Source: a virus. From it: a DNA stretch of 30,850 nucleotides. The position numbers and the translations under genes were made by a program. Within the stretch, counting starts at the first letter, position 1, and each line of letters starts with the position of its first letter. Of the stretch, positions 14,557 through 28,478 are shown piece by piece. The notes below the pieces were generated by a model. It had not been told where the DNA came from, made no database searches, and was given only the letters and a program-made list of their open reading frames with translations. Location: IMG/VR virus record IMGVR_UViG_3300035701_000185, positions 1-30,850 of that record; one strand, 5' to 3'.

Positions 14557-16695
14557 TTACTCCTCTGCTATTTCTACCTTTGAAACTATGCAAAGCAAAT
14601 TCAAAGGTAAAGCATCAACTTGCGTGATATATATCTGCCCCGCCTTTTGATAGCCCGCCGGGAAGGTTATCTCTTTATCCCCTGTTAGTAGGGGCGGTGG
14701 CGCGTCCATATCCATACTGCTGTCGCGGAATAATACAATATCCTGATTTCCTTCTACACCTATTTTACAGTTTAGGCTCTTATATAGCCGGACAAGTATA
14801 TGATAGATGCGTTTAATTATTCCCTGCGAAGTGCCGAGTCCGGAGTTTACCTCAAGGCGCAAGGTTTTTAGTTTCGATGTATAGGCTAAACCGGCATGCA
14901 CTACGAAATAGAAGTCGTCTAAAGCTACGGTCCCGGTCGGGCTGACGGTTCTTACCGGATGCACTGCGCCGTCTGTAAGAAGTGCTACCTCTTTGCCTAT
15001 CAGGTGATACAGTCCGGATATTTCATTCGTCGGGTCGCCATCATAGGTAAGCCCTGAGTCCACATAGAAACAATCTTCCTGTTCTGCCGGCTGAATAAAA
15101 GGTTTGAAGTATTCTATGTATTGTTTGACTGCGCCGCCTATGGTGCGCTCTACTACAACCCAAACCTCGTCTTCTTCGCCATTAGGTATGGTGGCAACGG
15201 ATTTGAAGTCTCCGTCGGTTATGAAACGCACCCAGCCGCCGATATCCTCTTCTATCTGAAAAGTCACACAGGCGAGTTCACCGTCTTCTCTTACGCACCA
15301 GAAGATATTTTCCGGGACTTCCTGATAAGCCATATCAACGATGCCGCTTTCTAAGATATGCGAGGCGCGGATAGTCGCGTCTACGGATTCATAGGCGTCT
15401 TTGGTAAAGTTATAGAAAAACTTGCGCATCGTGCGGTTATTGCGCTGGATGTAGAATACATAGTTGCTTATCATCTTGGGAAGGATATCGCTGGTGCCGT
15501 AACTGGTTTCTTTGGTTACTAATATGCTGGTGGGGGTTATGCCCTTGCTTATGTCGCCCTTTGCGGTGAAAGTCCCGCTTTCGGTGCCGATAGATAATAC
15601 TCCGGAAGCAAGCATCCATTTGATTGCGTTAACCTGATTATCGGATATGGTATAAGCTACCGCATCCGAATCGCCGGAGCCAGTTTCCATATTATAATAG
15701 TTTTCAGATTGTGAACCCCAGATGGTCTGCGGTTGGTAGTTAGTAGCCGCCCAGTAAAGCCTTTGCTCAAAGAAAGTCACGCATCGCGGATATCCCCGGT
15801 ATTTACTCCAAGCGCCCTCATACCAGTAAGTCGTAGCTACTGAGCCGGCTTCGAGTTGGTCGCCGTAAAGGATGTTTCCGGTGACTACGGTGGCACTGGT
15901 AAAACCGGTTATCTCGACATAAACATCTTGATTAGACCACTTGCCTGCGTCAAGGTCGGTTAGGAATACCGTCCCGGAGGTGTGGTTCGAGATGCACTTA
16001 TAGATTATGCCTTCGTAGGTAACATAGTTGGCAGTAGTATAGACGGTGTTTATCGCCCAAGCCGGGGCGTTTACGGATTTAGCGGAGATTATCTTCCAGA
16101 TTGAGCCGATGTGGCTTAGTAAAAATAAACTGGCTGAAGCGGTTAAGGTAACTGCCGTAGGGCCGCCGGTCATAGTTATGGTTGTAGCTGTGGTATTTAG
16201 GGGCATCAGCGCGGGTCGGGCATTATCGTCCGCATAATCTATCTCGTCAATAGTCCAAGCTATGTGGGAAGTTCTGGTCAGTATCATCTGTGGGTGATCC
16301 TTATGCGCTATATATAGCACATCTGCGGACTGGGCGAATTGCAGGTCAAAAACTTCCTCTTTAGTGTAAGGTGTTACTATTTCCACCAGAACGCCGGTTA
16401 CCTCTATGCGCCCGTCATCTTTATAGAAACGCATATACAGGTCGCCGACTTCTATGATATAGGCTTGTTCGGTAGAGAACTGGAAGGATATCATACGCGT
16501 TGCCCTGTCGTGATACTTCGCTTCGCAGACAAAGTATGAGCCTGGCCTGCGGTAGATACCGCCCTGCGACTTGATAAACATATTCTCTATTGTCGCGGCA
16601 CCGTTGAAGTATTTAGCATAGTCTACGCGGCCATACATTTCGGGGCTGAATTCGCCGCTCGTAAAATTTGTTCCAATGTAGTTGACCTTAGCCAT
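14557..16695 (-). CDS. Tail nozzle (tail tubular protein B, T7 gp12-like) with carbohydrate-binding-like insert
   Basis: The 712-aa product opens with the typical nozzle N-terminus (NFTSGEFSPEMYGRVDYAKY, then YFNGAATIENM and GIYRRPGSYFV), a signature of tail tubular protein B; T7 gp12 has 794 aa. The conserved core continues with EQRLYWAATNYQPQTIWGSQ. At about residues 211-253 there is a short domain with W, VYTTANYVTYEGIIYKC and a closing W, a pattern of chitin-binding type 3/CBM5-12 modules. The protein forms the distal tail tube that contacts the cell surface. ATG 16695 overlaps the gatekeeper stop (TAATG). Confidence 0.92.
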   Translation of the reverse strand: MAKVNYIGTNFTSGEFSPEMYGRVDYAKYFNGAATIENMFIKSQGGIYRRPGSYFVCEAKYHDRATRMISFQFSTEQAYIIEVGDLYMRFYKDDGRIEVTGVLVEIVTPYTKEEVFDLQFAQSADVLYIAHKDHPQMILTRTSHIAWTIDEIDYADDNARPALMPLNTTATTITMTGGPTAVTLTASASLFLLSHIGSIWKIISAKSVNAPAWAINTVYTTANYVTYEGIIYKCISNHTSGTVFLTDLDAGKWSNQDVYVEITGFTSATVVTGNILYGDQLEAGSVATTYWYEGAWSKYRGYPRCVTFFEQRLYWAATNYQPQTIWGSQSENYYNMETGSGDSDAVAYTISDNQVNAIKWMLASGVLSIGTESGTFTAKGDISKGITPTSILVTKETSYGTSDILPKMISNYVFYIQRNNRTMRKFFYNFTKDAYESVDATIRASHILESGIVDMAYQEVPENIFWCVREDGELACVTFQIEEDIGGWVRFITDGDFKSVATIPNGEEDEVWVVVERTIGGAVKQYIEYFKPFIQPAEQEDCFYVDSGLTYDGDPTNEISGLYHLIGKEVALLTDGAVHPVRTVSPTGTVALDDFYFVVHAGLAYTSKLKTLRLEVNSGLGTSQGIIKRIYHILVRLYKSLNCKIGVEGNQDIVLFRDSSMDMDAPPPLLTGDKEITFPAGYQKAGQIYITQVDALPLNLLCIVSKVEIAEE

Positions 16696-17279
16696 TATAC
16701 CCTCTCGTCAAGAAAATAATCTTGTCCCGCCAAATAAGTATCCGGGTTCTCCTGCGCGTCCGCGCCTTGAGCTATATGCAATACTCCGGCATAGTTATCC
16801 GCCAGCAGTTTAGCAAGGTTCTTATCGTTAGCTATCGGGAACGCTATCATCGCCGCGAGCTTTGCCGCAAGAGCCTCATCGAACTTGGTCGAATACTTAG
16901 TCGAGTCGGTGTTCAAATAGATATATTTCATATAAACCGTCGTTTCATCTGTCAGAAGCACGCCGCCTTCTATCTGGTAGTAGTCGTTTTCTATCTTGTC
17001 ATCTTCAGAGACGCCATTGTAGACGGTTACCTTCCTTATGTAGTCGGCAGGAAGTTGGTATTGATACGTCCATCCGTGTGCCGGGGCGGCTGCTAACTGC
17101 GCCAGTAATGCACGCTTCAGAGCAAAGTTCCAGGGATGTTCAGCAAGCACCGACGCAAGGGCTTGGTCGTATATCGCCTTGAGGATTTTGGCGTTAGTGA
17201 CATCGTCATCGATAGATATAATCCTATCCGCGCCTATAAGTGTCAGAGCCATATTACATATCGCTACTTTGCCAAACAT
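16695..17279 (-). CDS. Tail gatekeeper (tail tubular protein A, T7 gp11-like)
   Basis: The 194-aa product (T7 gp11 is 196 aa) shows the family pattern: an N-terminal helix with NMALTLIGADRI, then YDQALASVLAEHPWNFALKR (the EHPWNFA motif is diagnostic), and WTYQYQLPADYIRKVTVYN. It forms the ring between portal and nozzle. ATG 17279 is preceded by AAGGAGGTAGAATT, which lies inside the last codons of the glycosyltransferase gene; the two genes overlap by 16 bases. This shows that the sugar cassette and tail genes are translated from one message. Confidence 0.93.
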   Translation of the reverse strand: MFGKVAICNMALTLIGADRIISIDDDVTNAKILKAIYDQALASVLAEHPWNFALKRALLAQLAAAPAHGWTYQYQLPADYIRKVTVYNGVSEDDKIENDYYQIEGGVLLTDETTVYMKYIYLNTDSTKYSTKFDEALAAKLAAMIAFPIANDKNLAKLLADNYAGVLHIAQGADAQENPDTYLAGQDYFLDERV

Positions 17280-18127
17280 AATTCTACCTCCTTATAAACC
17301 TCTTCGTATTCAGACACAATATTTTTCCAGAGAAACTTCTCTTCTATCAGGCGTCGCCCAAGGAATTTCTTTAGCGCTTCCTTTACTCCGTTAATTGTCG
17401 GCTCAATAAAGGTTACATATCCCTCGAGTTCCTGCCATAATCCTACCTTTGTCATCAGCACCGGCACGTTTCCTGCAAGCGCCTCAAGGATAGTATTATT
17501 GCAACCTTCGGAATATGAAGTATGCACATAGACATCTATAGAATTGTAGAAATCCTGCATCTCTTCATACGGCACGGTAGCAACAACACGGTTATCCACC
17601 TTGCCTGTCTTCAGCGCGGTCTTTAATTCTAATCCTAAATCCTCGCAGGCCTGCCGCAGAGCCGCAAGGTTCTTTACTTCGTTATCCGTTCCGGCATAAC
17701 CTATAACCGGCTTTTTGTGCTTGCAGAATAAATCCTCGTCTATTCCATTAGGAATATATTTTATCTTGCCGTTGCCGTATTTCTCTGTAAGCGACTTTGA
17801 GACACTGGTCGAGGCGGCAATTAGTTCCACTATTTCCAGCACTTCTTTAGGATTTCCGCCCTTGCCGTCAGTCAGTGTTCTCTCATTAGAAGAGGTAAGG
17901 ATTATTTTCTCGGCGTGTTTCTCTATGAATTCTTTATGATAAGCAATTCCAAAACAGCAATGAAAGTGGATAATATCGTATTCTTTCTCATTCCAGTCCA
18001 AGAATGGCTTTTTTTCTTTTAGGTTCAGGATGTCGCAATAGTATTCTTTAGGCAAAAACTTCTTGATTGCCTTGCACCTGTTTTCAACCGCCCAGCCTGC
18101 ACTGTCACTTACCAAAAGAATTTTCAC
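17264..18127 (-). CDS. GT4-family glycosyltransferase (GT-B fold)
   Basis: The 287-aa protein begins MKILLVSDSAGWAVENRCKA (GTG start at 18127, overlapping the TAG of the previous gene). The C-terminal half has the GT4 donor-site pattern: IGYAGTDNEVKN near residue 140, and YSEGCNNTILEALAGNVPVL near residues 206-225, containing the E-x7-E signature. It should transfer a sugar from a nucleotide donor. It is shorter than cellular GT4 enzymes (350-400 aa), mainly through a compact N-terminal domain. Substrate is unknown. It is the last gene of a six-gene cassette and its end contains the ribosome binding site of the gatekeeper gene. Confidence 0.88.
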   Translation of the reverse strand: MKILLVSDSAGWAVENRCKAIKKFLPKEYYCDILNLKEKKPFLDWNEKEYDIIHFHCCFGIAYHKEFIEKHAEKIILTSSNERTLTDGKGGNPKEVLEIVELIAASTSVSKSLTEKYGNGKIKYIPNGIDEDLFCKHKKPVIGYAGTDNEVKNLAALRQACEDLGLELKTALKTGKVDNRVVATVPYEEMQDFYNSIDVYVHTSYSEGCNNTILEALAGNVPVLMTKVGLWQELEGYVTFIEPTINGVKEALKKFLGRRLIEEKFLWKNIVSEYEEVYKEVELCLAK

Positions 18128-18894
18128 TATTTCCTCTCCAAAATTAGATGCCTGCCTTTACTTCTGATTAACCTAAATCTTTCCCCTGCTACCAACATTA
18201 AACCTTGGGCTGAAGAATATCTCCACTCTGCCTTACTTGATTTGGTTACCATATGCTCGGCGCAGTAGGTCAGGAATAATAACCCGCCTTTCACAAGCAA
18301 ATCGGACATCAACCTGAACCAAGTGTCAGGGTATTTGACGTGTTCTATTACTTGCCAGTTGACTACATAATCAAACTGTAATTTAAGTTCTTCGGGTATT
18401 CCAGTTATCTCAAAGTCGTAATTGTAAATTTCTATTGCGGGGTCTTTGACTTTGATCACCCGATTAGGCAAGTCAGTCGCCACCACCCGTTTATACTGCC
18501 CTTCTTTTTTGAGTATCTCTGAGAGCCAACCTGTCCCGCAACCTACATCTATGATAGATTTATCTTTAGTCTCGCCCAAAACGCTTATCACATCGTTTTT
18601 AACTCTGTCTATAAAATATGGGTCATCAGAACGTTTGCCTTGTTCCTCGCTATATGGTGCTTCCCGACGGGGATATACCCACATCTGATAGACGGTATTA
18701 CAATCAAGGCATCTGAACCACTGGATATCGTTAGGCGCATCTGCGGACATATTTTCTTCATAATCACTCTTGCCCATCACATCGCTTGCTTCCGCTTTCT
18801 TGTCTATCGATGGCACTGCGACTTTCTCTGTAGAATGGCAGAGATGACATCCTTCCCATTTCCAGTAAGAGATTTGACGGTTATTTAGGCTCAT
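18127..18894 (-). CDS. SAM-dependent methyltransferase with N-terminal zinc ribbon
   Basis: Two CxxC pairs at residues 16-19 (CHLC) and 62-65 (CLDC) form a likely zinc-binding domain. From about residue 112 the class I SAM fold begins with motif I IIDVGCGTGW (residues 114-123), an acidic strand (VVATDLPNR), FDYVVNWQVIEHV (motif IV region with EH) and GGLLFLTY, the Methyltransf_23/11 pattern. Zinc ribbon plus methyltransferase is also found in sugar C-methyltransferases of O-antigen and deoxysugar pathways, which fits the neighbouring glycosyltransferases, though protein or small-molecule targets cannot be excluded. ATG 18894 lies within the previous gene's end after a GAGAGG site. Confidence 0.88.
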   Translation of the reverse strand: MSLNNRQISYWKWEGCHLCHSTEKVAVPSIDKKAEASDVMGKSDYEENMSADAPNDIQWFRCLDCNTVYQMWVYPRREAPYSEEQGKRSDDPYFIDRVKNDVISVLGETKDKSIIDVGCGTGWLSEILKKEGQYKRVVATDLPNRVIKVKDPAIEIYNYDFEITGIPEELKLQFDYVVNWQVIEHVKYPDTWFRLMSDLLVKGGLLFLTYCAEHMVTKSSKAEWRYSSAQGLMLVAGERFRLIRSKGRHLILERK

Positions 18895-19558
18895 TTAACC
18901 TCTCAAATGAAATAGTAGTGAAGTTCCCATATCTCGGTTGTTCATCGGAAGATTTAATCTCTAACATAGCCCTTGTTTTATAAAGTCCAAGATTGTCAAG
19001 TTTCTTGTCAGGTCTTACAATAATACCAGTATTATCTTTTCTCAATGCCATCCCAGAAATGCCTTTCCTATAAATAGCATCAAACCATTCTTTCTGTCCC
19101 TCTGGTATATCACCTATCTTTTTCCAAGAATATTCGTCAACTAATGAATAGTCGGTATAATAACCTAACTTGAAACAAGCATATCTGTCATAACCAAAGA
19201 CTTTATATTTCGGGTATAAAAGGCTCTTGCTCTTTATAACCCCCATATTATCAAAAGTCCAAAGAACACTGCATCTTCCACCATCTGTCTTAAGTTGCGG
19301 TGATACAAGTCTTGAATCTACCTTGATAATAACAAGGTCATCCTCTTTAGTGATTATATTTATTTCCCCATTACCACCATATTCCTGCTCATAATGGTCT
19401 TTCCCGTCAATCCAATATTCACATCCCTCACGATAGAGTTGAGTATCAAAATCATAAATAAGTTTTGTAAGTGAACCGCCTCTTTCTATTGAAATAGTCG
19501 CTTCATAAAAATCATTCTTAACTATAAACTTATCTTCGTATTCTAAAAGTTGAACCAT
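18881..19558 (-). CDS. 225-aa beta-rich protein of unknown function in the glycan cassette
   Basis: The product starts MVQLLEYEDKFIVKNDFYEA and is almost entirely alternating beta strands, with FYEATISIERGGSLTKLIYD near residues 17-36, a pattern reminiscent of galactose-mutarotase-like or glycoside hydrolase beta-sandwich domains (ATISxxxGGxLxxL). No catalytic motif can be assigned. It lies between two methyltransferases and overlaps both (16 and 14 bases), so it probably takes part in the same process, perhaps binding or processing the sugar. AT-rich base composition sets this gene and the preceding methyltransferase apart from the capsid and tail genes. Confidence 0.7.
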   Translation of the reverse strand: MVQLLEYEDKFIVKNDFYEATISIERGGSLTKLIYDFDTQLYREGCEYWIDGKDHYEQEYGGNGEINIITKEDDLVIIKVDSRLVSPQLKTDGGRCSVLWTFDNMGVIKSKSLLYPKYKVFGYDRYACFKLGYYTDYSLVDEYSWKKIGDIPEGQKEWFDAIYRKGISGMALRKDNTGIIVRPDKKLDNLGLYKTRAMLEIKSSDEQPRYGNFTTISFERLNEPK

Positions 19559-20145
19559 ATCTTATTCTTTTCTACTTTCATTCCTCTATCGGTAAAAACT
19601 TCTATATATTCTATAAATTCATCCCGATATAGTAGTTCAAGATATATTTTTCCATTAGGTTTTAATTGACCAAGCATATTATCCAACAGGAAAATCCATT
19701 CTTTCTTTCCCCAAGAAGGTTCGTTCATATAACTTACAAAACTGGGAAAGAACATTGTAATCAAATCAAATTTCTTGCCATAATCGGGTAGTGGTTTGAA
19801 AGGCAATATCTCAAAGACCTTCCTGTTAATCTTTAAGAGATCTACAATCCCTTGACTATAAATATCATCATATTCATCAAGACTCTCAACCCTGTGTCCG
19901 TAACTCTGTGCTACGAAAGGAAAATATCCAAATCCAGTGGCGATATCAAGAATATCCAAACCGCTTGTATTTGCCAGTCCGAGCTTGTGGCATCTGTTTA
20001 CTGACTCCGTTATCATCCTATCCAAATCAAGATACTTCTGGAAACCATCAAGAAAATTTATCTCGGGATGATAATTACTTTTTACTACATTCCTTAATGC
20101 CTTTTCTTTTATCTCCGCAAACTTATTTCTGTCAAGTTCTATCAT
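19543..20145 (-). CDS. Class I SAM-dependent methyltransferase
   Basis: The 200-aa protein has motif I LDILDIATGFGYF (residues 63-75), an acidic residue at the end of the second strand (VESLDEYDD, residues 87-94), FDLITMFFPSF in the motif IV position and LKPNGKIYLELLY as the strand 5 segment. An N-terminal helical region of about 60 residues precedes the Rossmann fold. The DIATGFG motif lacks the more usual GCGxG form but keeps the D-x-x-x-G-x-G spacing. Its target is unknown; position between a glycosyltransferase and the beta-rich protein suggests glycan or lipid-linked sugar. ATG overlaps the previous stop (ATGA). Confidence 0.85.
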   Translation of the reverse strand: MIELDRNKFAEIKEKALRNVVKSNYHPEINFLDGFQKYLDLDRMITESVNRCHKLGLANTSGLDILDIATGFGYFPFVAQSYGHRVESLDEYDDIYSQGIVDLLKINRKVFEILPFKPLPDYGKKFDLITMFFPSFVSYMNEPSWGKKEWIFLLDNMLGQLKPNGKIYLELLYRDEFIEYIEVFTDRGMKVEKNKIWFNF

Positions 20146-20711
20146 CTTGGCGCTTCCTTAAATTTTCTTGAGGCCTGATAATGTTGTATTACCGGTTCCC
20201 CTATCTTTTCCATTAGATCAGATATATACACATAACTGGCTGGCAACGGTATTATTTTACCGTCCCATAGTTTTATCGCCTTCTGCAATACTATCTGTGA
20301 GCGTTTCTCGTCCGGATATTCTTTATTCAATTTTATCCAAAGATATACCAGCTCAAGTGTTTTTGGTGTATAGGCGAAGTATAACGTTCCGCCTAATAAT
20401 TCAATCTGATTATTAAACCAAGTCATTGTCGCATAGTGGACGCCTATGTCGCCTTCAAAGTTCTCAAAGAGCGCAGGCGCACGTTTCATCTCGGCATCGC
20501 AGTCTATCCAAACTACATCCTGCCGGTGCTTTTCGAGCATCTTCCTGATAAAGTCGGCGCGGTAGTAGATAGTCTTTATCCAACTACCTTTGTTTTCTAT
20601 AGGCACGATTTCGGTCTCGAAGCCAAAACTCTCCGCGCTGGTTCTTAACTTATCGGCGTAGTCTTTGTAACTATCGGTGTAGAAGGAACAAATTATCGGG
20701 CGTTTTTCCAT
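20142..20711 (-). CDS. GT-A type nucleotide-diphospho-sugar transferase
   Basis: The 189-aa product begins MEKRPIICSFYTDSYKDYAD and carries VVWIDCDAEMKRAP (residues 67-79), where DCD is the metal/nucleotide-sugar binding DxD motif, preceded by a KTIYYRADFIRKML helix. Later GGTLYFAYTPKTLELVYLW follows the pattern of the nucleotide-diphospho-sugar transferase family (PF03407-like). It should add one sugar to an unknown acceptor. No membrane segment is present. The gene overlaps the upstream one by 19 bases and the downstream one by four. Confidence 0.85.
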   Translation of the reverse strand: MEKRPIICSFYTDSYKDYADKLRTSAESFGFETEIVPIENKGSWIKTIYYRADFIRKMLEKHRQDVVWIDCDAEMKRAPALFENFEGDIGVHYATMTWFNNQIELLGGTLYFAYTPKTLELVYLWIKLNKEYPDEKRSQIVLQKAIKLWDGKIIPLPASYVYISDLMEKIGEPVIQHYQASRKFKEAPR

Positions 20712-21226
20712 ATTTCTGTAGGTTCTCCTAGTATTTCTTTAGTAAAGCCGGAATATGATTTTACCTTATCCCCGAAGCTCTGCTTGGCGTTCTCCCATGC
20801 CAGTTTGACTGCCGGGTCGTCAAGTTCCCCTCCGCCTGCCGGGTGGTCGTAGAAACGCCCTGTAGAGTCCACAGGCGTGCCACACAGGGCGATCTTGGTG
20901 TATCCGAGCTCCAGGGCTATCTTAACCGCCAAAAGCCCGCTTGAGCCGCCTAATTGCGCAAAATCAAGCCATACACAGTCTACCCCTTCGCCGATGCGCA
21001 CTGAGTGAGTTGTGGTGCGCGGGGCATGCAGTTTCTTGAAACCGCTAAAGTATTCCGGGTGCAGGCTTACCCAGTGCCTTACGGATACCTTTCCTGTTTT
21101 AATTAAGTATTCCAAGCCAAAGAACGAATGATTTACGCACATCAAGTCTGCATCCGGCATCAGAAGCCGCACCTTATCAAACTCTTCCCATAATTGCCTT
21201 GAACTTCCGAGTATAATTAAGTTCAT
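20693..21226 (-). CDS. DUF115/sialyltransferase-like Rossmann protein
   Basis: The 177-aa product starts MNLIILGSSRQLWEEFDKVR, a Rossmann-type beta-alpha opening, and has FAQLGGSSGLLAVKIALELG followed by YTKIALCGTPVDSTG (residues about 89-123). The SSG-helix-LGY-I-L-G pattern is shared by bacterial sialyltransferase-like (GT42) and DUF115/MptE-like proteins, which makes a role in nonulosonate or other sugar transfer plausible. The likeness is by pattern only. It is the first gene of the cassette; its ATG sits just four bases after the T-run of an intrinsic terminator and has no Shine-Dalgarno site, so its expression is unusual. Confidence 0.65.
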   Translation of the reverse strand: MNLIILGSSRQLWEEFDKVRLLMPDADLMCVNHSFFGLEYLIKTGKVSVRHWVSLHPEYFSGFKKLHAPRTTTHSVRIGEGVDCVWLDFAQLGGSSGLLAVKIALELGYTKIALCGTPVDSTGRFYDHPAGGGELDDPAVKLAWENAKQSFGDKVKSYSGFTKEILGEPTEIWKNAR

Positions 21227-21230
21227 AGTT

Positions 21231-21260
21231 AAAAAAGGAGTGGAGCTTTCGCCCCACCCC
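21231..21260 (-). terminator. Intrinsic terminator after the head genes
   Basis: Read on the minus strand, GGGGTGGGGC, loop GAAA, GCTCCACTCC forms a 10-bp stem with a tetraloop (two G-T wobbles, no mismatch) and is followed immediately by TTTTTT. It lies ten bases past the stop of the putative decoration gene, so it should end or reduce head-gene transcription before the glycan cassette. Confidence 0.88.
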
Positions 21261-21269
21261 GATTGACCC

Positions 21270-21692
21270 TTATTCCATAGTCCAGAATACTGTCAGCTTA
21301 ATCGTGCCGGTTGCGGCATAATCAGCTGTAGTAATCAGGATTTGGGTTGTAGTCGAGGTTATCTCAAAATTGAGGCCGTCAACTAACAACGCATTTCTTG
21401 AACCTGCGGCAACAGCAGACGCAGCCGCCAAGTATCTGGCTGCTGTAGTGCTATCACCTACCGCTAAAGTAGCGGCGGCTCCTAAAGCATCATGGGCTAA
21501 ACTGATACCCACAACCTTTGCTCCTACGGGCAACGGCCCGCACATAGCGATAGTAGAAGCCGCGGCAAGTCCCGAGGCTTCATACGTATCCTGTGAAACA
21601 CGCACTCTTCCACCTACTAAACCCGGATCAAGGATATTAGTAGGAGAAGGCGCGACTACTTTCGTGTTATTCACACCTTTAACTGCACTCAT
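21270..21692 (-). CDS. Putative head decoration/minor capsid protein
   Basis: A 140-aa Ala/Thr/Val/Gly-rich beta protein starting MSAVKGVNNTKVVAPSPTNI and containing RVSQDTYEASGLAAASTIAM and VGAKVVGISLAHDALGAAAT. Small beta-rich proteins encoded directly after the major capsid gene are usually decoration proteins, and composition and length fit, but I do not recognise the family with certainty. A strong GGAGGAAAT site precedes ATG 21692. It is the last gene before the terminator. Confidence 0.7.
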   Translation of the reverse strand: MSAVKGVNNTKVVAPSPTNILDPGLVGGRVRVSQDTYEASGLAAASTIAMCGPLPVGAKVVGISLAHDALGAAATLAVGDSTTAARYLAAASAVAAGSRNALLVDGLNFEITSTTTQILITTADYAATGTIKLTVFWTME

Positions 21693-21718: not shown

Positions 21719-22582
21719 TTACACTTCCAAACATGCTATTTCTACGATTTTGACTTCTTCCATCCTGGTTGCGCCACAGCTAAGAGAGGCATATACCTGC
21801 GCTGCGTAGTGTTTCTGAGGTATAGTGTCTATCTTCGCTGTCATCCCGTTGGCCTGTGCCAAAAGCACTCCGCTTTTTATCCATGCCATAACGAGCCTGC
21901 TTGACGCTCCGTCAACAGGCAAACGCTCGGTGCGGATAAACTTGAAACCTAAGAAGGTGTCAATCTGTCCGGAAACGAGTGTTTTGATGGTATTGTAATC
22001 TGCGGACTGAATCTGGGTTGTGTTCAACAGGTTGGTGATTTGCTTCGCCGAACATGCGATATAGCGCGCTTCATCCGGGTCGCACTCTGCCGCGTCCAAC
22101 TTCTCTTTTGTCGCAAGAAGCTTGGCAAGGGTGAGGCCTGACGATGCTACTGCTATCTTCTGTCCTGCGGGTAATACGACTGGTGTAGTTCCGGCTTTGC
22201 CGGTGTAGGACGTGCCGTTGATAGCTGCGATAATCAAATCGTCTATCTTGCGGCCTATTGCCCACTGCAGGGCCTGCATCGTGGTCGACGTGGGGTCGAG
22301 AAGCATTTTCAGCTTATCTTCCTTGTCGATTAAATCGGCGATATAGACATCGATGGGAGTTACCATGCGGCGAGCGTAGTCATCCACCACATATTCCACA
22401 TCAGAGTGCCTTGTCGTCTTCACACTGGCAGTGAACGCTCCGAGCTGATCGTAGAACTTTGCTTCTCCGACCAGATCTGTCTCGAGGCGAACTGCGTCAC
22501 GCAGGCGGCTGCCTTTTTGCTGGACTAACGTCTCCAGCGTAGTGCCAAACTGCTTTACAAAGGCATTACTTATATCAGCCAT
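21719..22582 (-). CDS. Major capsid protein
   Basis: The 287-aa protein begins MADISNAFVKQFGTTLETLV and has features of HK97-fold podovirus capsids of the Phage_capsid_2 type: an early KGSRLRDAVR helix, the E-loop-like region around TRHSDVEYVVDDYARRMVTP, the long spine helix DKLKMLLDPTSTTMQALQWA, and a final beta segment. It follows the scaffold gene and precedes a small decoration-type gene. ATG 22582 is preceded by AGGAGGTTCAA. No frameshifted longer form, as in T7 gp10B, is visible. Confidence 0.9.
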   Translation of the reverse strand: MADISNAFVKQFGTTLETLVQQKGSRLRDAVRLETDLVGEAKFYDQLGAFTASVKTTRHSDVEYVVDDYARRMVTPIDVYIADLIDKEDKLKMLLDPTSTTMQALQWAIGRKIDDLIIAAINGTSYTGKAGTTPVVLPAGQKIAVASSGLTLAKLLATKEKLDAAECDPDEARYIACSAKQITNLLNTTQIQSADYNTIKTLVSGQIDTFLGFKFIRTERLPVDGASSRLVMAWIKSGVLLAQANGMTAKIDTIPQKHYAAQVYASLSCGATRMEEVKIVEIACLEV

Positions 22583-23873: not shown

Positions 23874-25470
23874 CTTTCATCTCCTTCTCTGCGCCGGCCA
23901 TATCCTTCGCGGCACTTGCGCCCTGCTGAAGCATCATCATCTTCTGCTGAGCCTGCGCAACTTGGGCGCGCTCCGCTCTTATCGCCTCAACAGTCTTGTC
24001 ATCGTTGATTATATTCGGGGGCGCTTTATACATATCAGCCATATCGTCTATGACTTTGTCTATGTTTATTTTGTCTAACGCATCAGCTTTGAATTGCGCC
24101 ATCTGGCCTACTAACGCAAGGAATTGCTGGACGCTTTGGATATCCTGCATCTTCTGGGCTTTGGCAAGAGGCGAGACATATTCTATTGAGTATTCTTTGC
24201 CTGCAAGCACTTGCGGTGCGGGCGCGAACTGGCCGTTTCTTGCTAAAATCCTGAAGCTTCTGTCTATAATCGGGTCTAAGAGTTCGTTCATCAGCCTGCC
24301 CAGTGTCGGCGCAAGTATCAGCATCTTCTCTTGGACGCGTTGCATAACTTCGGTTGCGGTCATATCCGGCGACTGATTCTCCAGCATAAGAAATAAATCT
24401 ACATAGAAATTCCTTTTTATCATTATCCTGCGTGTCTCAGCCATCGCCTCGCCTACCGGGATATTGCCTTCAGTCTGCAGGGCTTCTATCTTATCATCGG
24501 TGTTCTTGGTGAGGCGGAAGTTCAGTGCGGCTGGGTCTACTTTTATCGGAAGTAAGAAAGCGTCGTTAGGCAGAACGAGAGGCGGGTCTACTATCTTCTG
24601 CCCTGCCCTGATTAGCGTCTTGGCTATCAGGTTCAGCATCTTTATATCCGGAAGGCTTACAAAGGCAGGGCTTGTCCCCCAGACCTCGCCTGATTCTTTG
24701 CTGAAGCGCGGAACGAAATATGGAAACTCCCGATATCCGCCTTCGGCTATCATATGCTTTTTTGAGTATTCGATGTAGTATGAGGCATAAGGCATATTCA
24801 CCGCGTCAGCCTTGCGCTGGTCATAGAGACCGCGCGGGCAGACTGCATGCAAAAAGAATACCGGCTTGTCATAATCTTGTTTCTCATAGGCGTTAGTGAC
24901 TTCCTCACCTGCCGCCTTGCCCCACATCTCGTAGGCTTGGCGCGTGGTCAGTTTGAACTTGCGGATTACGGTATCTACGCGCTCATCAGCGCCTTCGGAT
25001 ATTACATATTCCTGAATCGGCCGGGTGTAGAAACGCAGCATATCTTTGAAATCCTCGTCTTCATAGATACAAGCAGTGCCGAATATTACTAAATCAAGGT
25101 AACCTTCGTGTATCTGCTGGGCAAAATTTGAACCGTTCAAGGCGTCATAGATACGGTCTTCGCAGTCTTTAATCCAAGTCTTGACTGAGTGGTCGTTCAT
25201 CAGCTCTTCTTCCTGCGTGCGGATGCTGAACCACTTGGAGCTGGGATTAGTAAGATAGGAGTGCAGGCCTGCGGATAGCACAAGTGCCGCCTGTGCCGCG
25301 GTTGAGTCATAAATATCGATATCAAACTTCTGGCCGGTGATAACTTCCCGGGTTATGTAAGCCTTGCGCGGGATGCAGTATTTGGCTATTTCCTGCAGGT
25401 GGCTTTCAAGAGTGCCTTTCTCGGTTTTTAGTGTATCGTATCTGCGGACCAATCTTTCAGCTATAATCAT
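23854..25470 (-). CDS. Portal (head-tail connector) protein, T7 gp8-like
   Basis: At 538 aa it is nearly the length of T7 gp8 (536 aa). It shows the head-tail connector pattern (PF12236): the N-terminal RYDTLKTEKGTLESHLQEIA, DSTAAQAALVLSAGLHSYLT, then PSSKWFSIR, and SNFAQQIHEGYLDLVIFGTA. The dodecameric ring is the entry for DNA packaging and the attachment site for the gatekeeper. The C-terminal region is Gln/Ala/Met-rich (residues about 490-538). ATG 25470 overlaps the GNAT stop (ATGA) after an AAGGAG site. Confidence 0.93.
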   Translation of the reverse strand: MIIAERLVRRYDTLKTEKGTLESHLQEIAKYCIPRKAYITREVITGQKFDIDIYDSTAAQAALVLSAGLHSYLTNPSSKWFSIRTQEEELMNDHSVKTWIKDCEDRIYDALNGSNFAQQIHEGYLDLVIFGTACIYEDEDFKDMLRFYTRPIQEYVISEGADERVDTVIRKFKLTTRQAYEMWGKAAGEEVTNAYEKQDYDKPVFFLHAVCPRGLYDQRKADAVNMPYASYYIEYSKKHMIAEGGYREFPYFVPRFSKESGEVWGTSPAFVSLPDIKMLNLIAKTLIRAGQKIVDPPLVLPNDAFLLPIKVDPAALNFRLTKNTDDKIEALQTEGNIPVGEAMAETRRIMIKRNFYVDLFLMLENQSPDMTATEVMQRVQEKMLILAPTLGRLMNELLDPIIDRSFRILARNGQFAPAPQVLAGKEYSIEYVSPLAKAQKMQDIQSVQQFLALVGQMAQFKADALDKINIDKVIDDMADMYKAPPNIINDDKTVEAIRAERAQVAQAQQKMMMLQQGASAAKDMAGAEKEMKGEPVPA

Positions 25471-25907
25471 ACGAGCTCCTTTATGAAGTGTGTTTCTAAC
25501 ATCCTGAATCCTATGCGCTCATAAAATTTATGCAACTTATCTGGCTTAGAATTGCCAATATACACCATTACCAATTTAGCACATCCCCACTTCTCTTTGG
25601 CTACCCGCTCTAATTCTTTCAATAACTTTATCCCGACGTTCCTGTATTTCTCCGCCACAAACCATATCGTCTCCTGAAATATCTTTTGGTCGTTAAGCGG
25701 GTAATTAACAATCAGCCCGGATATCAGGCCTACTACCTGCCCCTCTACTTCGGCGACTAACGTCGTATCTACGGACTTATTTAATATCGCGTTGCTGTAT
25801 GCCTCATCAAAATAAAGGTTGTAGTCGTTGAGGCTGTTTTTCTGAAACGTCCTTATCAGCTCAACCGCCTGCGGTATATCATCATGCGTTGCGGGGCGGA
25901 TTATCAT
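25467..25907 (-). CDS. GNAT-family N-acetyltransferase
   Basis: The 146-aa protein begins MIIRPATHDDIPQAVELIRT, the usual GNAT strand-helix opening, and continues with VAEVEGQVVGLISG and the acetyl-CoA motif A WFVAEKYRNVGIKLLKELE (residues about 82-100), then KLHKFYERIGFRML as motif B. It should acetylate an amino group with acetyl-CoA; the target is unknown. T7 gp13, encoded just upstream of T7 ejection proteins, also has a GNAT-like fold, and such genes are common beside podovirus portals, so a virion-linked role is possible. It overlaps both neighbours by four bases. Confidence 0.88.
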   Translation of the reverse strand: MIIRPATHDDIPQAVELIRTFQKNSLNDYNLYFDEAYSNAILNKSVDTTLVAEVEGQVVGLISGLIVNYPLNDQKIFQETIWFVAEKYRNVGIKLLKELERVAKEKWGCAKLVMVYIGNSKPDKLHKFYERIGFRMLETHFIKELV

Positions 25908-26194: not shown

Positions 26195-27574
26195 TTAGCT
26201 AAATGAACCTACCGCTTCACGCGGCAAAGGTTGTGTATCGTAATAAGTGTTGTTCTTTATATTCTGCTCAAAAGCCCACTGTAACATCTTCCAACAATCT
26301 GCTCTGCCCGGACTCCGTTTTATTCTTACTTTTATTTCATCTTTAGGGATTATCTGAAGCAAACCTCTGGAATTATTAAAAAACTCATCGGCTTCAAGTT
26401 CCTCAATAAGTATCTTGTCTTCCGGGTTGATAGAAGCCCTGCCAGAAAATACCCTTTTTTGAGATATGAAAGCTGCCTCAGAACGTTTGTTCGCATACAT
26501 CGCTCTGTTTATCAATAGCATTTCTGAAGGAGCGGAACCGTGGAATTTGATTATCTCTATGCCCTTTAAATAGTTTTTATCTAAATTACAAAGCTCAGAA
26601 TAAGTCTCAATGCCTAAACCATCACAATCGACTATAATAAAATTACCATCTATCCTCTGGCACATTTCAACTGCGCGGATAGCTTTCTCAGTAGGGCTCA
26701 TTACTGGTTTGGTATAAATACCCACAATGTCCCCGCTGCAACCAGCCATAAAGATATTGTCATCAACACCTTCTCCGGCTGGATCAACCGCCACACCAGC
26801 CGGGAAAACAAATTTTGAAAGCAATCCGTGGCGGGCAAAAGCTAACTCAAAGAATACTTTAGTGAATACTTTGTTACGGACACTTACGCCCCAGTCGTTT
26901 TCAACAAACTGACGGTAAAGAATAGGATTCTGAATTTGAAGTATCTTTAATGAAGCTAAGAAATCGGGAGCAGCGTTTTCTTTATTATCCCAAGTAGTGG
27001 CTTCAATCAAGTCACAAAACTTTCCCTCAAATTCTGGAACTTCTTTCGCACTTTCGGCGAGTTTTCCGTCTTTCCATAATGGCTTCATCCAGTGATCACC
27101 GGCGTTACCGATAACCCAGCCTGAGCGCGTAGATAATCCTAATTTTATAAAATCATCAGTCGGAATTAATTGCCTTCTTAATCTGCCAAATAACATAAAG
27201 AAAGGTTCAGAATCTTCCAGCTCTTCTCCCTGCTCAATATAAAACCAACCGAGATTGATATTCTGCTGATTTATTGAATCAAGTTCGTCAATATGCCGGA
27301 ACATTGTTATTGAACCGTTGGGGTCAACAAGAGTGCGGTCTCCGGATACGCTTAAACCTGTATATTTCTCAAAATCTTTCAAGGTTGAATCGGAAAGAGA
27401 ACGGAAGGTTTTACGAAAGATAACGCCTAAATTATCAGGAATTAGTTTAGAATATATGCGAGAGCGGCCAATGGCGCACATTGTCTTACCGGTATTCCAG
27501 CCTCCCACAAAAGCCGGATGCCGAGCTTTGCTATAAACAAAATCATATTGAAAAGGTTTAAGAGTTACATTCAT
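26195..27574 (-). CDS. Terminase large subunit
   Basis: The 459-aa protein carries a Walker A motif GGWNTGKT (residues 24-31), the Walker B/catalytic acidic region GWFYIEQGEE (residues 109-118) and, in the C-terminal nuclease half, AVDPAGEGVDDNIFMAGCSG and FIIVDCDGLGIETYSEL, which supply the acidic metal ligands of the RNase H-like fold. It drives ATP-dependent DNA packaging at the portal and cuts the concatemer. Its ATG overlaps the small-subunit stop (TAATG). The sequence is AT-richer than the portal-to-capsid block. Confidence 0.95.
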   Translation of the reverse strand: MNVTLKPFQYDFVYSKARHPAFVGGWNTGKTMCAIGRSRIYSKLIPDNLGVIFRKTFRSLSDSTLKDFEKYTGLSVSGDRTLVDPNGSITMFRHIDELDSINQQNINLGWFYIEQGEELEDSEPFFMLFGRLRRQLIPTDDFIKLGLSTRSGWVIGNAGDHWMKPLWKDGKLAESAKEVPEFEGKFCDLIEATTWDNKENAAPDFLASLKILQIQNPILYRQFVENDWGVSVRNKVFTKVFFELAFARHGLLSKFVFPAGVAVDPAGEGVDDNIFMAGCSGDIVGIYTKPVMSPTEKAIRAVEMCQRIDGNFIIVDCDGLGIETYSELCNLDKNYLKGIEIIKFHGSAPSEMLLINRAMYANKRSEAAFISQKRVFSGRASINPEDKILIEELEADEFFNNSRGLLQIIPKDEIKVRIKRSPGRADCWKMLQWAFEQNIKNNTYYDTQPLPREAVGSFS

Positions 27575-28038
27575 TATATCGAAAGGGTTTGAGGGTTACG
27601 TTCAAGCAACCTCTCCTTTGGGGTAACGAATATGATTTTGGTTTCCCCGGTCTTTACTGCCCCGGAGTGTTCGACTCTATCTTTTAATCTACCATTTAAT
27701 TTCAAAGCAGTTTCTATGAATTTATGCCTGACTGCCTGATCTGGATATTCAACCCAATCGTTAGAATTCTTGTTGACTTGCATCTCTCCATTATCATTTC
27801 TGATAACTATATCAGCAGCCACTAATTTATTAGAATCAAGACCATCTACAATTTTCTTTAGCAAAGTATCATCATCTAAACCGTGCTTAACTAATAGTTG
27901 CCCAAAATCACAACGCTTTTCAATGTTTTTATGTGCATTCCAAGCGGTTGCATGAGCATAACCAGCTTTAACCGCGGATCTATAAGCCGACATGCCCTCT
28001 ATTCTATACTTTTTATATAACTGCCTACGGATGTTCAT
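27574..28038 (-). CDS. Terminase small subunit (putative)
   Basis: I place the start at ATG 28038 (154 aa), because a longer frame to 28092 would only add residues lying within the HNH gene. The N-terminal part MNIRRQLYKKYRIEGMSAYR followed by SAVKAGYAHATAWNAHKNIE has the helix-turn-helix pattern of small terminase DNA-binding domains (an AGYA-x-x-x-A turn). The middle is helical (DDDTLLKKIVDGLDSNKLVA) and the C-terminus basic/polar. Position directly before the large subunit with TAATG overlap supports the call. It should recognise the packaging site. Confidence 0.82.
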   Translation of the reverse strand: MNIRRQLYKKYRIEGMSAYRSAVKAGYAHATAWNAHKNIEKRCDFGQLLVKHGLDDDTLLKKIVDGLDSNKLVAADIVIRNDNGEMQVNKNSNDWVEYPDQAVRHKFIETALKLNGRLKDRVEHSGAVKTGETKIIFVTPKERLLERNPQTLSI

Positions 28039-28432
28039 CTTTATGCACTTTCTTATGACAATCAAGGCAAAGAGTAATCCCATTGTTAACATTCAATCTT
28101 AACTCTGGAAAATCTTTATAATGCTTAATATGGTGGGCATTTAGTTCACCACCTATGGCTTGGCAATGTTGACATTTCCAACCATCTCTCTGAAAAATAA
28201 AACTTCTCCATTCATTATATTCCTGTGATTTCCTATCTTCATCTATCCATTGCTCAATCGTATAATTAGGCAGATATTCCTTTAGAATATGTTCTTGCTC
28301 ATAATGATACTCTCTAAAAAGTGATTTTGCTTCAGTAATAGACATCTTCCCAGAAAGCACCAATTTCAATATATTAGGCCTTGAAGATTGTAATAATTTT
28401 AGTTTCTCTTTAAGTTCTAGGCGTATATTCAT
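28025..28432 (-). CDS. HNH endonuclease
   Basis: From ATG 28432 the protein has 135 aa. After a helical N-terminal half, the HNH module runs from RDGWKCQHC to the end: CQHC, LNAHHIKHYK, NVNNGITLCLDCHKKVH, so all metal-binding cysteines and the catalytic and metal histidines are present. HNH nucleases encoded next to terminase are known to assist terminase cutting in several cos phages (HK97 gp74 type), and this is a likely role here; a homing enzyme is the alternative. A frame extension to 28453 would start with GTG inside the terminator stem and is unlikely. The SD is weak. Confidence 0.88.
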   Translation of the reverse strand: MNIRLELKEKLKLLQSSRPNILKLVLSGKMSITEAKSLFREYHYEQEHILKEYLPNYTIEQWIDEDRKSQEYNEWRSFIFQRDGWKCQHCQAIGGELNAHHIKHYKDFPELRLNVNNGITLCLDCHKKVHKDEHP

Positions 28433-28441
28433 AAGGCAAAT

Positions 28442-28478
28442 AAAAAAGCCCACAACCCCTTAGCTAAGGTTATGGGCT
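28442..28478 (-). terminator. Strong intrinsic terminator upstream of the packaging operon
   Basis: On the minus strand AGCCCATAACCTT, loop AGCTAA, GGGGTTGTGGGCT... pairs over about 13 bp with three G-T wobbles and is followed by a run of T (TTTTTTATTT). It lies between a promoter and the HNH/terminase genes, so transcription into the morphogenesis genes needs antitermination, readthrough or another promoter. Confidence 0.88.

Follow-up and report, generated by a model that had tools for sequence, protein, structure and literature searches.

A replaceable slot between the decoration and gatekeeper genes of an HTVC010P-type podovirus and its six-gene block of predicted glycan enzymes

The six-gene block and its surroundings

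The window analysed here is the whole of IMG/VR record IMGVR_UViG_3300035701_000185 (30,850 bases, possibly a genome fragment), and the system in question is a block of six genes, P1 to P6, lying between the genes of a decoration-type protein and the gatekeeper. The structural half of a podovirus occupies the minus strand of the window, in the order terminase, portal, scaffold, major capsid protein (MCP), decoration protein, six-gene block, gatekeeper, tail tube B, internal virion proteins and fibres. The order portal-scaffold-MCP-decoration-gatekeeper-tail tube B and the Phage_capsid_2-type MCP are those of the HTVC010P-type podoviruses. The MCP is 48-51% identical to those of HTVC203P and Baldr. 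Judged by tail tube B, the window's nearest isolates belong to the HTVC010P group of Pelagibacter phages (42-45%, a low identity that may not indicate the host). The features of the region are:

21719..22582, minus strand: MCP, Phage_capsid_2 (PF19821, 3.6e-80; phrog_3437, 5e-83)
21270..21692, minus strand: decoration-type protein, candidate acceptor, bordering the slot upstream (phrog_486, 6e-13)
21237..21260, minus strand: intrinsic terminator, after the decoration gene and ahead of P1 (stem 21260-21237, 10 pairs, 7 of them G-C, followed by T6)
20693..21226, minus strand: P1, 177 aa, DUF115/MptE/Maf/GT29-like by fold; first gene after the decoration gene and an old member of the slot
20142..20711, minus strand: P2, 189 aa, predicted GT-A-like glycosyltransferase of the Nucleotid_trans family (PF03407), with invariant D70xD72
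19543..20145, minus strand: P3, 200 aa, GC 34%, putative class I S-adenosylmethionine (SAM) methyltransferase (motif I LDIATGFGYFPF; Pfam Methyltransf_23, E 0.058)
18881..19558, minus strand: P4, 225 aa, GC 34%, no profile match
18127..18894, minus strand: P5, 255 aa, predicted zinc-ribbon SAM methyltransferase (Methyltransf_23, 7e-17; C16xxC and C62xxC)
17264..18127, minus strand: P6, 287 aa, GTG start, predicted GT4 glycosyltransferase (Glyco_trans_1_4, 2.5e-10, above cut-off)
16695..17279, minus strand: gatekeeper (tail tube A), bordering the slot downstream (phrog_394, 1.8e-47)
14557-16695, minus strand: tail tube B (phrog_376, 1e-201)

All six open reading frames (ORFs) lie on the minus strand, and each overlaps the next, by 19 nucleotides (P1/P2), 4 (P2/P3), 16 (P3/P4), 14 (P4/P5) and 1 (P5/P6); P6 overlaps the gatekeeper by a further 16. 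A sequence-only reading of this DNA had described six overlapping genes between a decoration-type gene and the gatekeeper with a terminator ahead of them, and the ORF positions, the overlaps and the hairpin were all recovered. Genes related to P1, P2 and the gatekeeper stand in the same order elsewhere, and P3, P5 and P6 have relatives by sequence, so these are real genes and not chance ORFs. P4 is the sole member of the block without a relative, yet it is locked in the overlap chain. The block is thereby confirmed as real and its genes as coupled. None of P1 to P6 has a membrane-like segment, and a Pfam search of the window's cassette found no nucleotide-sugar, flippase or polymerase gene.

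Predicted enzyme classes and their company in other phages

P1 alone falls below every profile threshold. Against PF01973 (Maf/DUF115) it scores 11-17 bits, short of the curated cut-off of 34.6, its weak Pfam match is MptE-like, and single-sequence scans of viral contigs with P1 and with P5 gave no match. The AlphaFold (AF2) model, built with six relatives aligned, has a predicted local distance difference test score (pLDDT) of 84 and a predicted template modelling score (pTM) of 0.86. In a Foldseek comparison of this model with the PDB, the top-ranked glycosyltransferase is Maf (5mu5, probability 0.99, TMq 0.60, E 0.013); MjHPPK (8sd5, probability 0.97) and human ST6GALNAC2 (6apj, probability 0.87) are further matches, and none lies below E 1e-3. 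In the viral library, Foldseek matches the model to MptE-like/DUF115/GT29 proteins, the best at 1.7e-12. Thiamine pyrophosphokinases and the MptE-like MjHPPK score like Maf, as Rossmann enzymes rank alike. P1 thus appears DUF115/Maf/GT29-like at the level of fold only. According to PMC11339370, Maf enzymes O-glycosylate Ser and Thr of flagellin with nonulosonic acids.

The assignment of P2 as a PF03407 GT-A glycosyltransferase is made at family level: five of the eight members of its family match PF03407 (best 3.5e-6) and all eight keep the DxD motif, while the window's own copy has no Pfam match alone. P6 is firmly predicted to be a GT4 glycosyltransferase. The profile of the GT-B C-terminal donor domain is matched, the N-terminal half matches weakly, and phrog_2170 (7e-16) and the NCBIfam model stp2 (6.5e-12, below cut-off) are also met. 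The prediction for P5, a zinc-ribbon class I SAM methyltransferase, is equally firm, and a UbiG-like match (5e-14) stays below cut-off. The sequence-only reading had named a sialyltransferase/DUF115-like protein, a DxD GT-A transferase, a zinc-ribbon methyltransferase and a GT4 transferase. The last three calls agree with the profile matches and motifs given here, and the call for P1, which has no significant match itself, is backed by its family members, fold and motifs, with structure prediction and Foldseek pointing to a Maf/GT29-like fold that other Rossmann enzymes match alike. The methyltransferase call for P3 fared less evenly. Motif I stands, and a bacterial relative (33% identity over 163 aa) shares it, but the Pfam match is weak and the relative itself has no Pfam match at 1e-4.

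No match to P4 was found in Pfam, PHROG, NCBIfam, the PDB, a tblastn search of phages, a pattern scan of genome contigs or about 590 sampled genomes, and its AF2 single-sequence model (pLDDT 32) is unusable. That it is beta-rich is plausible. The mutarotase-like identity suggested by the sequence-only reading, and with it the idea of a methylated sugar made around P4, found no support in these searches. A marginal match (9.6e-4) inside a 21,903-aa frame from an Omnitrophota sample was taken as chance; the frame itself, uninterrupted, lies in a genome of that sample (G025:C10, L178).

In other phages, whose loci are cited here by L numbers, these classes are joined physically. In a 502-aa protein (L091:6472-7980, on a 45 kb contig), a P2 domain is joined to a DUF115/MptE-like one (PF01973 3e-4, below cut-off), and an 836-aa protein (L092:7197-9707, on a 429 kb contig; also L010) combines P2 and GT4 domains with a diverged part that resembles DUF115. 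The P1 profile aligns with the DUF115 part of the fusion at E 2e-5 in hhalign, over the shared motif only. The fusion genes of L091 and L092/L010 are neighboured by GT29-, GT25- and GT11-type genes, and P1-family genes in other phages adjoin FkbM and other methyltransferases, GT2, GT25, GT11 and hexapeptide transferases. A methyltransferase, a glycosyltransferase and a P1-family gene occur together in the unrelated phages L184, L193 and L197, and a methyltransferase adjoins P1 in L188 and L194. In the phage contig of L188, a NeuB-family synthase with a cupin domain (L188:2046-3350, 2.9e-44) directly precedes the P1-family gene and the methyltransferase. These fusions and shared neighbourhoods indicate that the enzyme classes belong together as glycan chemistry.

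A replaceable slot behind the decoration gene

Among the relatives gathered by tail tube B and MCP, 143 loci contain an MCP as well as a gatekeeper gene. In eleven of them, ORFs of 100 aa or more lie behind the decoration gene and before the gatekeeper; a few contigs of the set are near-duplicates. Most relatives are empty at this junction, as expected from the earlier claim that a glycosyl/methyl-transfer block sits where the gatekeeper normally adjoins the capsid genes. The site is a replaceable cargo slot. The closely related neighbours L109 and L113 are empty and loaded, respectively, and parsimony on a 65-row MCP tree counts at least ten changes between the two states; this is a quick tree with some rows fetched for carrying P1, so that the count describes the sample.

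The closest relatives, L011 and L096 (MCP 73-74% and tail tube B 60% identical to the window), have a slot of exactly terminator, P1, P2 and gatekeeper, with P1 at 60% in L011 and 59% in L096 and P2 at 29-30%. P1 and P2 are therefore the old core of the slot. P3 to P6 were probably inserted later between P2 and the gatekeeper in the window lineage, the alternative being their loss from the L011/L096 lineage. Silent-site GC is lowest in P3 (0.26) and P4 (0.20) among the 21 window genes measured, which favours recent gain over loss. The survey of relatives at this junction, which the sequence-only reading had proposed, thus bears out only part of its block: P1 and P2 are kept in L011/L096 and P3 to P6 are absent there, which argues against six genes that arrived together as one insertion unit. 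P2 of the window is 30% identical to that of L011 and 35% to that of L091, while P1 of the window and L011 are 60% identical. A replacement of P2 in one lineage is suggestive only; the approximately unbiased (AU) test does not reject a single clade (p 0.09).

Nor does the terminator mark the cassette, as had been supposed. Of 130 loci, 58 have a hairpin with a T-run within 90 nucleotides behind the decoration gene, where shuffled sequences lead one to expect 2.5; a control region inside the MCP gene has none. The slot is empty in 51 of the 58, and L011 and L096 carry the hairpin at the same place. The terminator is ancestral at the junction and no part of the cassette. In T7, the T-phi terminator stands behind the highly expressed head genes, and the window terminator occupies the corresponding position. 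Late and weak transcription would be expected for the genes that follow it.

The cargo differs among relatives. In L098, the direct sister of the window and L011 in the MCP tree, and in L099 and L103, the slot holds a Wzy_C protein, as it does in L112 below cut-off. L184-186 carry P1, a polysaccharide pyruvyl transferase (PS_pyruv_trans, 4.6e-9), a methyltransferase and a GT29-like protein. Two P1-like genes occupy the slots of L114/L115 (L114 is partial) and L187, and one those of L116/L192. Wherever P1 was seen in a slot, it comes first after the decoration gene or genes. Cargo unrelated to glycans fills L057 and L113; L057, considered as a glycan slot, was rejected, as its three large ORFs (L057:4422-9397; 415, 242 and 1000 aa), which have hydrophobic N-termini, are not glycan-enzyme-like. 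The apparently long slots of L106, L107, L117, L118 and L170 are in fact gatekeepers with an inserted stretch.

Several observations lie beside these. All four Wzy_C slots have, upstream of the Wzy_C ORF, a small protein whose N-terminus is hydrophobic and resembles a signal peptide (L098:7097-7813, L099:6531-7064, L103:7005-7661, L112:7403-7774), with a further, perhaps spurious, ORF between the two in L103; the pairs recall secreted substrate/O-oligosaccharyltransferase pairs. L177 (CAIVRE010000033.1) is an HTVC010P-like head-tail module with an empty slot within a Candidatus Omnitrophica metagenome-assembled genome (contig of 174 kb), which makes this group a possible host for part of the phage lineage. 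In the window, a GNAT acetyltransferase gene (25467-25907) lies just before the portal, and relatives have similar genes close to the portal or to tail tube B. An HNH endonuclease ORF (28025-28453) overlaps a weak small-terminase-like ORF (27574-28092).

Possible acceptors of the glycan

The slot, its old core, the classes of P1 (by fold only), P2, P3, P5 and P6 and the P1-P2(-GT4) fusions elsewhere are what the analysis shows, whereas the acceptor, the sugars, the order of action and the role of P4 are inferred. The block is most likely a glycan-assembly cassette. Of the two acceptors that the sequence-only reading had offered, the virion, with its decoration protein, is only slightly favoured over the host surface and stands at a little under an even chance. 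The old, partial terminator and translational coupling would keep expression low, late and catalytic. Cytosolic P1 would attach the first sugar to Ser or Thr of the decoration protein made by the same phage; this glycan would be lengthened by P2 and P6 and methylated by P3 and P5, giving virions with a modified glycan coat. Since P1 to P6 have no membrane-like segment, they fit direct cytosolic protein glycosylation. The place of P1 right after the decoration gene and the fold it shares with Maf also speak for the virion. The NeuB neighbour in L188 is the one hint at the donor, which may be a nonulosonic acid. The Ser+Thr fraction of the decoration protein is 0.212 in P1-bearing phages (n=10) versus 0.164 in empty-slot relatives (n=29; p 3e-4), and no such excess is present in the MCP, the gatekeeper or tail tube B.

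Some findings weigh against this assignment. The Ser/Thr test is confounded by kinship and contains at best three independent pairs on supported branches, of which 2.5 on average go in the expected direction and none in the opposite one. The four sister phages with Wzy_C in the slot (L098, L099, L103 and L112) carry membrane proteins of O-antigen ligase type there, the pyruvyl transferase with a GT29-like gene beside P1 in L184-186 likewise points to the host surface, and a bacterial Wzy_C/GT cluster contains a distant relative of P5 that is likewise a zinc-ribbon methyltransferase. It is distinctly possible, if not probable, that the same cassette acts on host lipopolysaccharide, capsule or wall polymer, with P1, P2 and P6 adding sugars to lipid-linked precursors and P3/P5 methylating them; the receptor would change late in infection, competitors would be excluded and progeny would be kept off debris. 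The GT25, GT11, GT2 and hexapeptide genes around P1-family genes of other phages suit this reading, and phage enzymes are well known to cause O-antigen seroconversion. However, the window cassette lacks genes for a flippase, a polymerase, a membrane anchor or nucleotide sugars, and P1 always stands behind the decoration gene. The Wzy slots are no proof of a polysaccharide target either, since Wzy_C (PF04932) presumably may also include protein O-oligosaccharyltransferases.

The fold of P1 leaves room for an enzyme of another kind, as every PDB match stays above E 1e-3 and the fold is common to MptE and thiamine pyrophosphokinase. With such enzymes at similar Foldseek scores and the weak Pfam match being MptE-like, P1 might be a pterin/thiamine pyrophosphokinase-like enzyme and not a glycosyltransferase, but its steady glycosyltransferase company, the fusion to a PF03407 domain and the matches to Maf and GT29 proteins make this very improbable. 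It is also unlikely that the slot has collected unrelated enzyme morons, with P1-P2 and P3-P6 serving separate processes and P3/P5 acting, for example, on small molecules or nucleic acid. The closest relatives lack P3-P6, the GC of P3/P4 is unlike that of P5/P6, L057 and L113 have non-glycan cargo and P4 has no assigned identity; against this stand the overlap chain of six genes, the P1-P2-GT4 fusion and the company that methyltransferases and glycosyltransferases keep with P1-family genes in L184, L193 and L197, with a methyltransferase by P1 in L188 and L194.

Within the favoured reading, with the decoration protein as acceptor, a fuller scheme is quite possible, though less likely than not: a compact podoviral virion glycosylation, in which a miniature Maf-like enzyme, its gene right behind that of the decoration protein, would start an O-glycan on this protein, partners varying between phages would extend, pyruvylate or methylate it, and the slot would be an exchangeable locus of coat chemistry.

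Glycan modification by phages is already known for both virions and host O-antigen. Mycobacteriophage virion glycosylation has been reported (Freeman et al. 2023, as cited in a passage of PMC11256854), with phage-encoded glycosyltransferases proposed to modify capsid proteins; the present system, known from genes alone, differs from what that passage describes in its podoviral head-tail slot, six coupled genes, two methyltransferases and DUF115-like protein. The Maf/DUF115 flagellin systems of Campylobacter, Aeromonas and Clostridium botulinum (Maf) resemble it in that Maf is the PDB glycosyltransferase whose fold P1 matches best, in the proposed cytosolic direct transfer and in the NeuB linkage of a related phage locus, but P1 has 177 aa versus 632 in the solved Maf and lies below the PF01973 cut-off, and no flagellin is involved. 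O-antigen seroconversion modules (gtrABC; the O-acetylase, polymerase and iap of phage D3) share phage-borne glycan enzymes, and the sister slots with Wzy_C are like them, whereas the window cassette lies in the late structural operon and has no GtrA/GtrB-like flippase pair or membrane enzyme: no GtrA, GtrB or polytopic Gtr profile was matched in P1 to P6. Phage O-antigen modification, and the benefit to lytic phages of preventing debris binding, are discussed in PMC12373910. Glycosyltransferases are accessory genes of SAR11 podoviruses, in HTVC023P-type and other pelagiphages, and the glycosyltransferase passages of that paper (PMC9599517) do not describe several glycosyl- and methyltransferase genes united in one cassette between the decoration and gatekeeper genes. 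A limited search of the open-access literature found no description of an exchangeable slot in HTVC010P-type podoviruses, of this gene combination or of a P1 family with P2/GT4 fusions.

If the decoration protein is the acceptor, small environmental podoviruses would diversify the chemistry of their shell by swapping cassettes at one fixed site. If it is the host surface, the cassette would provide a late receptor change in small podoviruses. With either acceptor, the slot beside the decoration gene is a simple place in which to seek glycan enzymes, and P1 is its marker gene.

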